In this document: piece by piece, positions 3,492 through 58,050 of the stretch
Layout: every line of letters starts with the position of its first letter
How positions within the stretch are numbered: the first letter of the stretch is position 1
Assembly (NCBI GenBank): GCA_028227525.1
Contig: JAOJAE010000001.1
Location: forward strand, 44,343 to 108,342
Direction: 5' to 3'
Source of the DNA: Candidatus Pelagibacter sp.
GTDB taxonomy: Bacteria > Pseudomonadota > Alphaproteobacteria > Pelagibacterales > Pelagibacteraceae
DNA length: 64,000 nt
Notes under the pieces: generated by a model
What the model was told of the DNA's origin: nothing
The model's database searches: none
What the model saw: the letters and a program-made list of their open reading frames with translations, nothing else
Position numbers and translations under genes: made by a program

Positions 3492-4329
3492 CTAAATTTA
3501 ATTCTTCGTTAATTAATAAATGATCATGTTCAATATTTTCATCATTTTTATTTATTAATAGTAATTTAATTAGGTCAAAAACAGAAAGAAAAGTTTCTAT
3601 AATTTTCTCAATATTTGAAACATAAATTTTTCCAGATTTTCTATAATTTTCTAAGGTTTTCTTTTTTAAAATTTTATACCCAATTTTTCTATAAACTCTT
3701 CTAGCTACTAAGATTGAAAATCGAAAGCTTATCGGTATTTTGTTAATTGAATGAAAAGAGTTTTCATAAAATTTTTCTGCAAGCATTAAAGTAGAATGAA
3801 TTTCTTCAAAATTTTCATTTATATATGATCTATTATTATTTAAATCTTCAATCACGTCTCTTGATATATTTGTTAGCTGCATTGCTATTCCTAAATCAAT
3901 TGCAGACTTTAATGAGCTCTTTTTACTTACATTTAAAATTTTTGCCATTAATAAGCCAACAGTTCCAGCAACCTTGTAAGAGTAAACTAATAATTCTTTT
4001 TTTGAGTTTAATTTTACTTTTTCTTTAATATCAGATTTAATGCCTTCAAATAAATCATGAATAATTTTTAAAGAAATATTAAATTCATTTATAAGATCCC
4101 ACATATTTTTTATAATAGGATCATCAAAATTTTTATTATTAAAATTATTTTCAAAGTTTTTAAATTTATTTTCCTTTAATTCAACTGAACCCTTATCATC
4201 AGCTATGTTGTCTATAACTCTACAAAAATCGTATAATGTGGAACACTTTTGATAAGTTTGTTTTGGTAAAAAAAAACCCGCCCAATTAAAAGATTTGGCA
4301 TAAAGTGACAAGTAATTTTGGTTTGTCAT
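3478..4329 (-). CDS. crtB: phytoene synthase
   Basis: CrtB condenses two geranylgeranyl diphosphates to phytoene, the first committed carotenoid step. Both aspartate-rich motifs of the trans-isoprenyl synthase fold are present: YDFCRVIDNIADD near residues 33-45 and NISRDVIEDLNNNR in the middle. Length is 283 residues. The ATG at 4327-4329 overlaps the crtI stop codon, so the genes are coupled. The geranylgeranyl diphosphate synthase (crtE) usually found with this set is absent here and must lie elsewhere. Confidence 0.94.
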   Translation of the reverse strand: MTNQNYLSLYAKSFNWAGFFLPKQTYQKCSTLYDFCRVIDNIADDKGSVELKENKFKNFENNFNNKNFDDPIIKNMWDLINEFNISLKIIHDLFEGIKSDIKEKVKLNSKKELLVYSYKVAGTVGLLMAKILNVSKKSSLKSAIDLGIAMQLTNISRDVIEDLNNNRSYINENFEEIHSTLMLAEKFYENSFHSINKIPISFRFSILVARRVYRKIGYKILKKKTLENYRKSGKIYVSNIEKIIETFLSVFDLIKLLLINKNDENIEHDHLLINEELNLDERL

Positions 4330-13965: not shown

Positions 13966-15032
13966 TTTTTTGAAATTAATCTTTGTCTTAGATAATCAAT
14001 TGGATGTATTCTTCCATTAATATCACAATGCCAATAAGTCCAGCCATTACAGCTCTCAGCACCTAAAATTGTTGCAGCTACTTTATGAATAGATCCTTCA
14101 GCTAGATTATGTTTAATGCTTCCATCTGCCATTATTCTTGCTGTAATTTTTTTCTTATGATCAAAAATATTTGTACCAGGCTTAATTATGCCAAGTTCCA
14201 CTAGAGAACCAAAAGGTATTCTTGGTTTAGTTCGATTATTTTTTAAGGTATCCAATAAATCATCTTCAATTTTTTTTGTATTTTTTATTCTTTGTTCAGC
14301 AGCTTTAAAATAACTTTTTTCTTTTTCTATACCGTAATAATATCTGCCTAATTTTTTAGCTACAGTAGCTGTAGTTCCAGATCCTAAAAATGGATCTAAA
14401 ATCATGTCATCTTTATTTGATGATGCTAGTAAAACTCTATGAAGTAGAGACTCTGGTTTTTGTGTTGAATGAACCTTTTTACCATTTTTTTTAAGTCTTT
14501 CAGATCCATTGCAGATTGGTAGATTCCAGTTAGATCTCATTTGTAGATCGTCATTTAAACATTTTAATGATTGATAATTAAAAGTGTATTTTGATTTCTC
14601 ACTTTTTGAAGCCCAAATTAAAGTTTCATGTGCATTCGTAAATCTTGTTCCCCTAAAATTTGGCATCGGATTATTTTTATTCCATATCACATCATTTAAA
14701 ATCCAGAATCCTAAATTTTGAATGGCTGTTCCTACTCTAAATATATTGTGATAACTACCTATGACCCAGATAGCTCCATCCTTTTTTAAAATTCTTTTAC
14801 ACTCGGTTAACCATTCATATGTAAATTCATCATATTTTTTAAAATTTTCGAATTGATCCCATTTATCATTAACAGCATTGACTTTAGATCTGTCGGGTCT
14901 AGTAAGCTCACCTTTTAACTGTAAATTGTATGGTGGATCTGCAAAGATCAAGTCAAAAGTTTCGCTTGGAATTTTTTTTAACTCTTCGAGACTATCCCCA
15001 TTAATAATTTTGTTTTTAAAATTAGTTTCCAT
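13962..15032 (-). CDS. ccrM: cell-cycle adenine DNA methyltransferase (GANTC-type, CcrM family)
   Basis: CcrM methylates adenine in GANTC and times cell-cycle genes in alphaproteobacteria. The catalytic DPPY motif is at residues 32-35 (LIFADPPYNLQLKGEL), the SAM-binding motif is LDPFLGSGTT, and the C-terminal CcrM domain (RIMADGSIKHN, GSIHKVAATILGAESCNGWTYWH) that separates this family from phage methylases is complete. I chose the ATG at 15032 (356 residues, close to the Caulobacter protein). A TTG at 15056 in the same frame would lie upstream of the predicted -10 element. No restriction enzyme is adjacent, as expected for an orphan regulatory methylase. Confidence 0.93.
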   Translation of the reverse strand: METNFKNKIINGDSLEELKKIPSETFDLIFADPPYNLQLKGELTRPDRSKVNAVNDKWDQFENFKKYDEFTYEWLTECKRILKKDGAIWVIGSYHNIFRVGTAIQNLGFWILNDVIWNKNNPMPNFRGTRFTNAHETLIWASKSEKSKYTFNYQSLKCLNDDLQMRSNWNLPICNGSERLKKNGKKVHSTQKPESLLHRVLLASSNKDDMILDPFLGSGTTATVAKKLGRYYYGIEKEKSYFKAAEQRIKNTKKIEDDLLDTLKNNRTKPRIPFGSLVELGIIKPGTNIFDHKKKITARIMADGSIKHNLAEGSIHKVAATILGAESCNGWTYWHCDINGRIHPIDYLRQRLISKN

Positions 15033-15044
15033 TTGTATAAAATA

Positions 15045-15097
15045 ATTAGACTCCAAATGGATTCTTGGGTCAACCTGAGATTGAATTATTTGGATTC
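15045..15097 (-). promoter_or_regulatory. predicted ccrM promoter with three GANTC sites
   Basis: Reading the minus strand: -35 TTGACC (15068-15073), a 17-nt spacer, and -10 TCTAAT (15045-15050). This would start transcription about 6 nt before the ccrM ATG. GANTC methylation sites lie at 15049-15053 (overlapping the -10), 15060-15064 (in the spacer) and 15093-15097 (upstream of the -35). At this base composition GANTC should occur about once per 400 bp. The promoter assignment is inference from the hexamers; the site positions are read directly. Confidence 0.62.
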
Positions 15098-56004: not shown

Positions 56005-57831
56005 GTGGAAAGAATAATTACAAAATCATTTGCTAGATTAATGGGTAGAGGCACCCACAGAGGATTTATTACCCATGAAGAATTAAGCAAATCTCTCGGA
56101 AAAAGAAATCTATCTGATGAAAATTTATCGCAAGCATTTATCCATATCTTGGATGAAGGTGTAGCTTTAGTAGAAAAAAAATCTGATTTTAAAGTTTTAA
56201 GAAAAAAAGAAGGGTCGTCTAAAGAGGAAGGTAAGACGATTGAGAAGAGCGATGATCCTATCAGAATGTATTTAAGAGAAATGGGTGGCGTAGAGCTACT
56301 TTCAAGAGAAGGGGAGATTGCAATTGCTAAAAGAATTGAGGCCGGAAAAGATGTAATGTTGATTGCATTATCACAAAGCCCGATGACCGCTCAACAATTT
56401 TATGAGTGGAATGATCAATTGCAAAAAGATGAAATTTTAGTTCGAGAAATTATTGATATTGATACTAATTATATGGAAGATGAGTCAACTGGACCTAGCG
56501 CAAAACAGAAAAATGCTGGTGAGACTGATAAAGATGACAACTCAAGTGATGGTGACGATGATGATTTTAACCCAACACTTGCTGCAATGGAGACTGAAAT
56601 AAAACCTAAAGTTTTAAAAACAGTAAATACATTAACAAAAGAATATACAAAATTAATAAAATACCAAAAAGAAAAATTAGATTGTGTTTTAAACTCACAA
56701 AGCTTTTCTACCACGAAAGAAAAAAGCTATCAAAAGATTGTAGATGATATTTTAGAAAATATTAAATCTCTTCAACTATCACCTTCAGTTTTAGAAGAAT
56801 TAGTTCAAAAACACTATGTTGAAAATAAAAAAATTATATCGCTAGAGGGAAATCTTTTAAGGTTAGCGATGGATCATAATATTCCAAGAAATGAGTTTAT
56901 TAAATTTTATATTGGCAATGAAATTAATCCAAATCTTAAAAAATTTTTAGATACAAACTCAATTTGGAAACAATTTTTTTCAAAAAATAAAGAAGAGTTT
57001 AAGAATATTAGAGAAAGATTAATTGAGATTAGTCATAAACTAGGAATTTCTGTAACTGATTTTAAAAAATTAGTTAGCAGAGTTCAAAAAGGTGAAAAAG
57101 AGTCTAGGATTGCTAAAAAAGAAATGGTTGAAGCTAACTTGAGATTGGTAATATCAATTGCTAAAAAATATACGAATCGAGGTCTTCAATTTTTAGATTT
57201 AATTCAAGAGGGAAACATTGGCTTAATGAAAGCTGTTGATAAGTTTGAGTATAGAAGGGGATATAAATTTTCTACGTATGCTACTTGGTGGATTAGACAA
57301 GCTATTACAAGATCAATAGCTGACCAAGCTAGAACTATTAGAATTCCAGTTCACATGATTGAAACAATCAATAAGATTGTAAGAACTCAAAGATTAATTT
57401 TAAGTGAGTTTGGAAGAGAGGCAACTCCTGAAGAATTGGCTCAAAAACTTAGAATGCCATTAGATAAAGTTAGAAAAGTTTTAAAAATTTCGAAAGAACC
57501 TGTATCACTTGAAAAACCGGTTGGTGATGAAGAAGATAGTAGTCTAGGAGATTTTATAGAAGATACAAAAGCATTGGCACCTCTTGAACAGGCCATTAAG
57601 TCAAATCTTGGAGAAGCAACAACCAAAATTTTATCTACTTTAACTCCAAGAGAAGAAAGAGTTTTAAGAATGAGATTTGGTGTAGGAATGAATACGGATC
57701 ATACTTTAGAGGAAGTTGGTCTTCAGTTTTCTGTCACTAGAGAAAGAATTAGACAAATTGAGGCAAAAGCTCTTAGAAAACTTAAACATCCAAGCAGATC
57801 TAAACAATTAAAAAGTTTCTTAGAAAGTTAA
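56005..57831 (+). CDS. rpoD: RNA polymerase primary sigma factor (sigma-70)
   Basis: The housekeeping sigma factor, 608 residues from a GTG start (56005; an in-frame stop lies 24 nt upstream, so little choice is left). Region 1.1 is N-terminal, region 1.2 is [29 protein letters not shown], and an acidic non-conserved region ([14 protein letters not shown]) follows. Regions 2.1-2.4 lie around [42 protein letters not shown], and region 4.2 is [31 protein letters not shown] tRNA gene begins 7 nt after its stop codon. Confidence 0.97.
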
Positions 57832-57838
57832 TTTTACT

Positions 57839-57913
57839 GGGCCGTTAGCTCAATAGTAGAGTACTGCATTGACATTGCAGGGGTAGTTGGAGCGTAACCA
57901 ACACGGCCCACCA
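57839..57913 (+). tRNA. tRNA-Val (anticodon GAC) with altered elbow contacts
   Basis: All stems pair: acceptor GGGCCGT/ACGGCCC, D stem GCTC/GAGT (one G-T), anticodon stem CTGCA/TGCAG around TTGACAT, T stem GTTGG/CCAAC, discriminator A, encoded CCA. The loops are unusual. The D loop is AATAGTA, with A where G18 belongs; the T loop is AGCGTAA instead of TTCGANN; and the last variable-loop base is A rather than C. Only the G19-C56 contact is kept as usual. It begins 7 nt after the rpoD stop codon, so it is probably cut from the rpoD transcript. Valine identity rests on the GAC anticodon and A73. Confidence 0.85.
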
Positions 57914-57973: not shown

Positions 57974-58050
57974 GGGCCTGTAGCTCAGTTGGTTAGAGCA
58001 GTACACTCATAATGTATTGGTCCCAGGTTCGAGTCCTGGCGGGCCCACCA
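57974..58050 (+). tRNA. tRNA with CAT anticodon, probably tRNA-Ile2 (lysidine type)
   Basis: A canonical tRNA: acceptor GGGCCTG/CGGGCCC (one T-G pair), D loop AGTTGGTTA, anticodon stem GTACA/TGTAT with loop CTCATAA (anticodon CAT), T arm CCAGG-TTCGAGT-CCTGG, discriminator A, encoded CCA. A CAT anticodon can be initiator Met, elongator Met or Ile2. The first pair is Watson-Crick, so it is not an initiator. The C4-G69 and C5-G68 pairs, known recognition elements for lysidine synthetase TilS, favour Ile2. It ends 9 nt before the convergent mlaC stop. Confidence 0.9.

Follow-up and report, generated by a model that had tools for sequence, protein, structure and literature searches.

A probable decoding tRNA-Val(GAC) of SAR11 bacteria with a conserved, altered elbow

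Introduction

What becomes of a tRNA whose stems all pair but whose D-loop and T-loop bases depart from those that normally join to form the elbow? G18-psi55 and T54-A58 are textbook tRNA contacts and near-universal, and the bases for both are missing from a tRNA-Val(GAC) gene located next to rpoD in the window, which is the whole stretch of 64,000 nucleotides of Candidatus Pelagibacter sp. DNA analysed here. An earlier note on this DNA had drawn attention to the gene, considering that the loops had changed together under selection or that the RNA had a non-standard structure or role. The canonical bacterial elbow is described as holding the pairs G18-psi55, G19-C56, T54-A58 and R15-Y48 (PMC4810234, PMC7912444), with base 18 inserted between bases 57 and 58 and in contact with psi55 (PMC4810234). 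In what follows, genomes and loci are designated by G and L numbers, respectively.

Results

The tRNA-Val(GAC) gene, with an encoded CCA, occupies positions 57839..57913 of the forward strand, on which rpoD, the loops, the anticodon and the neighbouring tRNA described below also lie. It was delimited exactly so by ARAGORN, in agreement with its letters, and was matched by the Rfam tRNA family RF00005 with 53.6 bits (cut-off 29), compared to 63.3 and 72.7 bits for the two other tRNAs of the window; the concern that standard finders might miss it is not borne out for this gene, which both programs detect. The gene begins 7 bases after the stop codon of rpoD (56005..57831), an ORF of 608 aa with a GTG start that lies immediately 5' and served as anchor for synteny and trees, and an adjacent tRNA with a canonical elbow by its letters, tRNA-Met(CAT) according to ARAGORN, is found at 57974..58050. 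All stems are paired: the acceptor stem GGGCCGT/ACGGCCC, the D stem GCTC/GAGT with one G-T pair, the anticodon stem CTGCA/TGCAG and the T stem GTTGG/CCAAC. The anticodon GAC (57871..57873) was assigned both from the letters and by ARAGORN, the discriminator is A73 and the variable loop is GGGTA. The gene passes every secondary-structure test for a tRNA, and its description as an intact tRNA-Val(GAC) with pairing stems, A73 and CCA is upheld.

The elbow is another matter. In the D loop AATAGTA (57852..57858), numbered by alignment to 7-nt D loops, A14 (57852), A15 (57853) and G19 (57856) accompany A18 (57855), a position usually occupied by G, and the final variable-loop base, usually C or T, is A48 (57885). 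The T loop AGCGTAA (57891..57897) comprises A54 (57891), G55 (57892), C56 (57893), G57 (57894), T58 (57895), A59 (57896) and A60 (57897). The pairs are therefore A-A at 15-48, A-G at 18-55, A-T at 54-58 and a normal G-C at 19-56, letter by letter as had been claimed. Compared to the canonical bacterial elbow, which requires G18, U54, U55 and A58, the tRNA has in common the cloverleaf, G19-C56, R57, U8, A14 and a 7-nt T loop, but differs in A18-G55, A54-T58, A15-A48 and A60.

When 397 Pelagibacteraceae genomes were searched with the DNA of the gene, 119 contained a copy identical at 75 of 75 positions (counted from the match table), and matches at E 0.001, in part weak, were obtained in 177. 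Related loci were also fetched through RpoD, yielding at least 80, of which 21 were SAR11 by title; among the matches listed, 13 of these 21 have a tRNA-Val near rpoD and all 13 share the same 75 letters, although the flanking DNA varies in the 12 that were compared with the window. The odd loop bases are thus conserved in these rpoD-linked SAR11 loci, the point that the earlier note had proposed to check by alignment.

More diverged SAR11 forms carry compensated stem changes (GGGCCGT to GGGACTG, CTGCA to CCTCG and GTTGG to GTAGG). In a set of 15 distinct sequences that includes two canonical elbows, 13 of the 21 stem pairs vary on both sides and 99.7% of cells are paired; the observed stem covariation was reached by none of 500 shuffles, a control inflated by the kinship of the sequences. 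The cloverleaf of an RF00005 tRNA is in this way supported by covariation. The bases A15, A18, G19, A48, A54, G55, C56, T58 and A60 are constant in all 13 distinct altered-elbow SAR11 sequences aligned, the copies of G160, G183 and G054, which are damaged or partial, having been left out of these alignments. Positions 16 and 59 may covary in SAR11 Val(GAC), T16 going with A59 and A16 with T59, in few lineages. A decaying gene or a sequencing error could be suspected from odd bases at normally fixed positions and from the damaged copies in G160, G183 and G054 (a second copy in the latter), but identity in 119 of 397 genomes and the compensation in the stems rule it out and leave it a negligible probability, as the earlier note had already judged with respect to decay.

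The damaged copies differ in kind. The second tRNA-Val copy of G054 (L143) is without its 5' third, the copy in G183 (L150) is 5'-truncated, and the one in G160 (L139) has mismatched acceptor and T-stem halves and a 5' end resembling the neighbouring tRNA-Met. A mobile-element attachment site was considered and discarded, the two ORFs beside the partial G054 copy having glycosyltransferase and mannosyltransferase domains (Pfam) and no integrase. The rpoD / tRNA-Val / tRNA-Met stretch is variable in SAR11, with inserts of about 1-3 kb (L003, L008, L010, L011, L013, L019 and L170); the tRNA-Val is displaced in L003, where it lies 1.3 kb from rpoD, and was not found near rpoD in L008 and L019.

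With respect to function, the gene has the anticodon GAC, A73 and CCA of a decoding tRNA-Val, and it is the sole gene for its anticodon in the tRNA sets read for G001 and G006, the two genomes to which this statement applies. The first, an incomplete single-cell genome, gave 27 tRNAs, and the second, a single contig of 1.2 Mb, gave 31 by ARAGORN and 33 Rfam matches, each with one Val(GAC) and one Val(TAC); the second, canonical Val(GAC) whose existence the earlier note had left open was not among the tRNAs read in either. GTT is the commonest valine codon in 18 ORFs of the window (265 of 468). On these sequence grounds, the altered-elbow gene is most likely an ordinary decoding tRNA-Val(GAC). 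There are tRNAs that are used outside the ribosome, the staphylococcal cell-wall tRNA-Gly being an example, and the departure from the elbow consensus would be in line with a specialised tRNA of that sort. Such a role is highly improbable for a tRNA that is the single Val(GAC) read in both G001 and G006, serves the commonest valine codon, has canonical-elbow orthologues at the same place and is accompanied by tRNA-Phe and tRNA-His species changed likewise; the non-standard role once proposed is accordingly unsupported.

These further tRNAs were found in genomes in which other tRNA genes were read. A18-G55 is present in tRNA-Phe in three of three genomes (G002, G003 and G006) and in tRNA-His in one of three (G006). 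In tRNA-Phe(GAA), the D loop AGGAGTA is combined with the T loop TGCGAAT (G006, likewise G002 and G003). The tRNA-His(GTG) of G006 (L503 716-786) combines AAATAGTA with AGCGTAA and so has the same altered elbow as the window tRNA; it scored 50.6 bits with Rfam and was unreported by ARAGORN. A canonical tRNA-His lies beside tRNA-Phe in G002 and G003, at the place corresponding to that of the altered tRNA-His of G006. Converted tRNAs amount to at most three per SAR11 genome read, with TTCRA loops in all 26 other tRNAs read in G001 and in 33 of 33 in G008, where TruB is present. The tRNA-Thr(GGT) of G002 and G003 (L539 and L540) shows another T loop, GTCAGTA, with G54 and G58 and the D-loop GG kept.

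Beyond SAR11, model searches that covered 289 genomes in the class and 398 in the phylum revealed no further case of A18-G55 in the best 56 loci, whose 100 tRNAs included 2 with G55, both SAR11 Val(GAC), and 98 with T54, T55 and A58. The threshold of these searches was also passed by canonical tRNAs (231 of 289 and 217 of 398 genomes matched) and just 17 or 12 candidates were scored per genome; compatibly with this result, A18-G55 may be present in other bacteria, most of all with other D-loop lengths.

Across the order Pelagibacterales, a Val(GAC) pattern matched 178 of 227 genomes; in the other 49 the gene may have been overlooked by the pattern, as in G008 and G349. Elbow types were taken from the 150 places listed, among which 106 have the altered elbow and 41 belong to a second, canonical group (AGTGGTA with TTCGAT); the canonical elbow is also found in G300 and G108, and G321 is intermediate, its ATTAGTA and TGCAATC giving A18-G55 with T54-A58. 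In G349, a canonical TTCGATC T loop is present yet A15-A48 is retained. The tRNA-Val of this genome directly follows rpoD like the altered gene (the rpoD match ends at 3871 and the tRNA begins at 3866), and has the anticodon arm, the T stem and A15-A48 in common with the altered form. The A-A combination at 15-48 is thus real but less telling than had been supposed, since G349 combines it with a canonical T loop.

When a tree was built from rpoD, after removal of 12 of 76 loci in which rpoD was absent or too short, the altered form proved to extend across the family as far as the deep G043 line, with the canonical tips nested within it. A single clade of canonical tips was not rejected by rpoD alone (p 0.169) and was rejected by four neighbouring genes in 27 loci (p 6e-42); the latter genes also rejected every pair of canonical tips as a clade (p 0.0009 or below) and call for a minimum of four changes. 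Three other SAR11 genomes, G349, G300 and G108, do have canonical loops at this place, a finding that the earlier note would have taken as a sign of sequencing or strain error, but they are few and scattered on the tree, and look like switches rather than signs of error in the remaining genomes. As the tRNAs of G300 and G108 resemble each other, their canonical form may have arisen by strain-to-strain recombination rather than by point changes.

Independent evidence on the loop bases was sought in phage tRNAs. Searching IMG/VR with the elbow pattern yielded 8 contigs, whose tRNAs, for Val(TAC), Asn(GTT) and Val(GAC), have different stems. With A54 and T58 fixed and positions 18 and 55 free, 36 distinct IMG/VR sequences were obtained, 29 with G-T, 7 with A-G and none mixed. 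Among the matches listed, fixing A18 gave G55 in 72 of 76 distinct sequences, T in 3 and C in 1, and fixing G55 gave A18 in 72 of 73 and T in 1, after 11 of 130 viral sequences had been dropped for poor stems. T54-A58 is kept in 51 of the 72 distinct A18-G55 tRNAs among these matches. Clustering of the 71 of these 72 that could be compared end to end, at 65% identity with the loops left out, gave 22 groups of up to 32 members. Kinship is not corrected for in any of the phage counts given here, and the loci behind them were selected by bait patterns. In a less biased count, that of the non-bait tRNAs (203 loci with 1121 distinct tRNAs, 237 of them with a 7-nt D loop and a 4-bp D stem, and 228 after removal of 9 without G19 and C56), the 18-55 combination is G-T in 197, A-G in 28, and G-C, T-T and C-T in one each, and A-T and G-G are absent; the Fisher p for this coupling is 2e-36, a figure that omits the three other combinations and ignores relatedness.

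The second pair behaves similarly. In non-bait phage tRNAs, A60 accompanies A54-T58 in 26 of 32 cases vs. 12 of 822 with T54-A58, and a purine is found at 48 in 18 of 32 vs. 161 of 822. A lone 54-58 swap is seen in a phage tRNA-Ile(GAT) (L184 and 26 further viral loci), which has A54-T58 and G15-G48 with an ordinary G18-T55. In SAR11 and phages alike, G19-C56 is kept and A54 goes with T58 and A60, often with purine 48. Two observations bear out the idea that the loops changed together under selection: A18 and G55 are coupled, as are A54, T58 and A60, and the elbow persists through turnover of the stems.

The Erythrobacter phage vB_EliS-L02 (OL955261.1 72153-72227; L407 2001-2075) encodes an unannotated tRNA-Val(GAC) with AGCAGTA and GGCAGCA, and therefore A18-G55 with G54-G58, which scored 47.8 bits with Rfam and was passed over by ARAGORN. 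The phage A18-G55 tRNAs of IMG/VR and vB_EliS-L02 have the 18-55 pair in common with the window tRNA, some adding A54-T58, A48 and A60, but their stems are unlike it and most have T54-A58, with G54-G58 in vB_EliS-L02. It was one of three inspected among the named phages matched by the L173 tRNA; the two others were Streptomyces phage Annadreamy, with a canonical elbow at the matching place, and Pseudomonas phage Astolliot, with ATCGTAA. Phage tRNAs with a CAT anticodon and A18-G55 (L262, L274, L276, L285, L297 and others) resemble initiators in that their first acceptor pair is mismatched (CGCGGGG...CCCCGCA).

Phages also carry tRNA-Val(GAC) genes whose elbow is identical or related (L180, L205, L243, L257 and the Erythrobacter phage), which raises the question of whether the SAR11 gene was acquired horizontally from a phage, displacing the old tRNA-Val(GAC), and the 75 nt of the gene are too short for a tree on this point. 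The altered and canonical forms share their place after rpoD, as the synteny of G349 shows, the anticodon arm, T stem and A15-A48 of G349 are those of the altered form, and the window tRNA had no match at E 0.01 in 50,697 phage records; a phage origin is in consequence distinctly improbable.

Some phage contigs appear to be converted almost throughout. More than 80% of tRNAs have G55 in 6 of the 97 viral loci with at least five tRNAs, corresponding to five contigs of 83-275 kb, and the other 91 do not exceed one third; no phage-wide frequency of such sets follows, because the loci were bait-chosen. The shares are 27 of 27 in L350, 31 of 32 in L277 and L345 (one contig), 14 of 15 in L266, 12 of 13 in L352 and 13 of 16 in L315. 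Of ten ORFs from two converted loci, four matched PHROGs (helicase, Nudix, DNA methyltransferase and radical SAM) and none was a structural gene with confidence.

This sharp division among viral loci would suit selection for escape from an elbow reader, which could be an enzyme of tRNA modification or a nuclease that cuts tRNAs and belongs to a phage or a defence system. The changed elbow would conceal the tRNA from it, and phages whose sets are converted nearly throughout would label their tRNAs as their own in this way. Phage tRNAs that evade tRNA-cutting defences have been published, but for changes in the anticodon loop, and neither T loop nor D loop is mentioned in the main text of that work (PMC10264068). 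Moreover, no nuclease or enzyme reading the A18-G55 elbow was identified, and SAR11 genomes have at most three converted tRNAs per genome read, with switches back, so that escape seems an unlikely explanation.

In the canonical elbow U54 and U55 are modified, and the corresponding enzymes were searched for. TruB_N was found in one of six SAR11 genomes (G043, among G001, G006, G029, G038, G043 and G349), and TruB (psi55) in 50 of 227 Pelagibacterales and not in 177, compared to 14 of 14 controls and with genome completeness uncontrolled; G006 and G029, each nearly whole on one contig, had no TruB hit. By listed elbow type, TruB was present in 31 of 41 genomes of the canonical group, 2 of 106 with the altered elbow, none of 3 nested canonical ones (G349, G300 and G108, which have no hit yet a canonical Val(GAC)) and not in the single intermediate. 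Genome incompleteness matters here, because 10 of the 41 canonical-group genomes also lack a hit, and the number of independent events is small, because the contrast lies largely between two clades. The TrmA family was not detected in the six SAR11 genomes (12 of 14 controls), nor was TrmFO above its cut-off (10 of 14 controls, 7 over the cut-off); weak TrmFO matches (52-55 bits) in SAR11 proteins of 624-636 aa probably correspond to MnmG. SAR11 tRNAs may lack psi55 and T54.

TruB and the altered elbow occur together in G043, deep in the tree, and in G026. The first case suggests that the elbow change may have preceded the loss of TruB. In the second, contamination is possible, because TruB and the tRNA lie on different contigs and no TruB was found in G029, which shares this tRNA. 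As canonical tRNAs persist without TruB, its absence permits but does not compel an elbow switch.

Discussion

The interpretation that we favour, and hold to be probable, is that of a working decoding tRNA-Val(GAC) whose elbow, likely of non-standard structure, would be held by compensated alternative tertiary contacts. Like G18, A18 would insert itself between bases 57 and 58, where it would form a putative sheared pair with G55; the U-turn with G18-psi55 would give way to a composite GNRA fold built by G55-C56-R57 and A18, which would explain the need of G55 for A18. A54-U58 would keep the loop-closing trans pair with its two letters exchanged, a putative role suggested by this exchange and by the linkage with 48 and 60. 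As to the cause, enzymes that depend on U54 and U55 went undetected (TruB in most SAR11, TrmA and TrmFO in the six genomes tested), which fits a relaxed need for both bases; their absence would have unpinned these letters and let the elbow switch, tRNA by tRNA, between equivalent sets of pairs. Steinberg and co-workers reportedly selected suppressor tRNAs with altered elbows, which may include similar laboratory forms. Among the papers listed from open-access PubMed Central, none was seen to describe A18-G55 as a pair that occurs naturally in tRNA.

The window elbow falls outside the canonical definition and corresponds in part to two described variants. One is the UGNRA type R1 lonepair triloop, in which a G and an outside A commonly complete a composite GNRA tetraloop, described for riboswitches and not for tRNA in the accessible text of PMC2258182. 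A G at loop position 2, coupled to a distant A by the 18-55 covariation, a purine at position 4 and A18 as the outside A are shared with it, a likeness drawn from base identities; the U-A closing pair is found in tRNA-Phe, G321 and 51 of the 72 phage A-G tRNAs among the matches listed, but is replaced by A54-T58 in the window tRNA. The other is eukaryotic tRNA-Ala, for which the accessible text of PMC7566577 describes R15/A48 coupled with A54/A58 and purine 60. The window tRNA shares R15/A48, A54, purine 60 and their coupling, but has T58 and not A58, and A18-G55 is unmentioned in that text. A GNRNA-type pentaloop within the T loop, from G55 to A59, was dropped because A59 is T in G356, G219, G255 and G285.

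More generally, at least two interchangeable pair codes may exist for the elbow, G18-U55 or A18-G55 and U54-A58, A54-U58 or rarer closures, with lineages free of the T54 and psi55 enzymes, such as SAR11, switching tRNA by tRNA and some large phages nearly the whole set, foreign to or untouchable by the elbow-reading enzymes of the host; this broader proposal is tentative, and we regard it with some doubt. The occurrence, in a highly abundant marine bacterium, of a natural, conserved and compensated alternative for which an intermediate and back-switches are seen makes the purpose of the contacts and modifications testable, and the missing TruB, TrmA and TrmFO of SAR11 would, if confirmed, constitute a natural loss experiment. 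In practice, the rule of A18 with G55 recovers tRNAs overlooked by a standard finder, such as the tRNA-His of G006 and the tRNA-Val of vB_EliS-L02, and flags phages with tRNA sets converted nearly throughout.

Apart from the tRNA genes, Rfam also revealed in the window a match to the bablM sRNA (RF01784) at 15029-15097 of the reverse strand, with 89.1 bits against a cut-off of 38.
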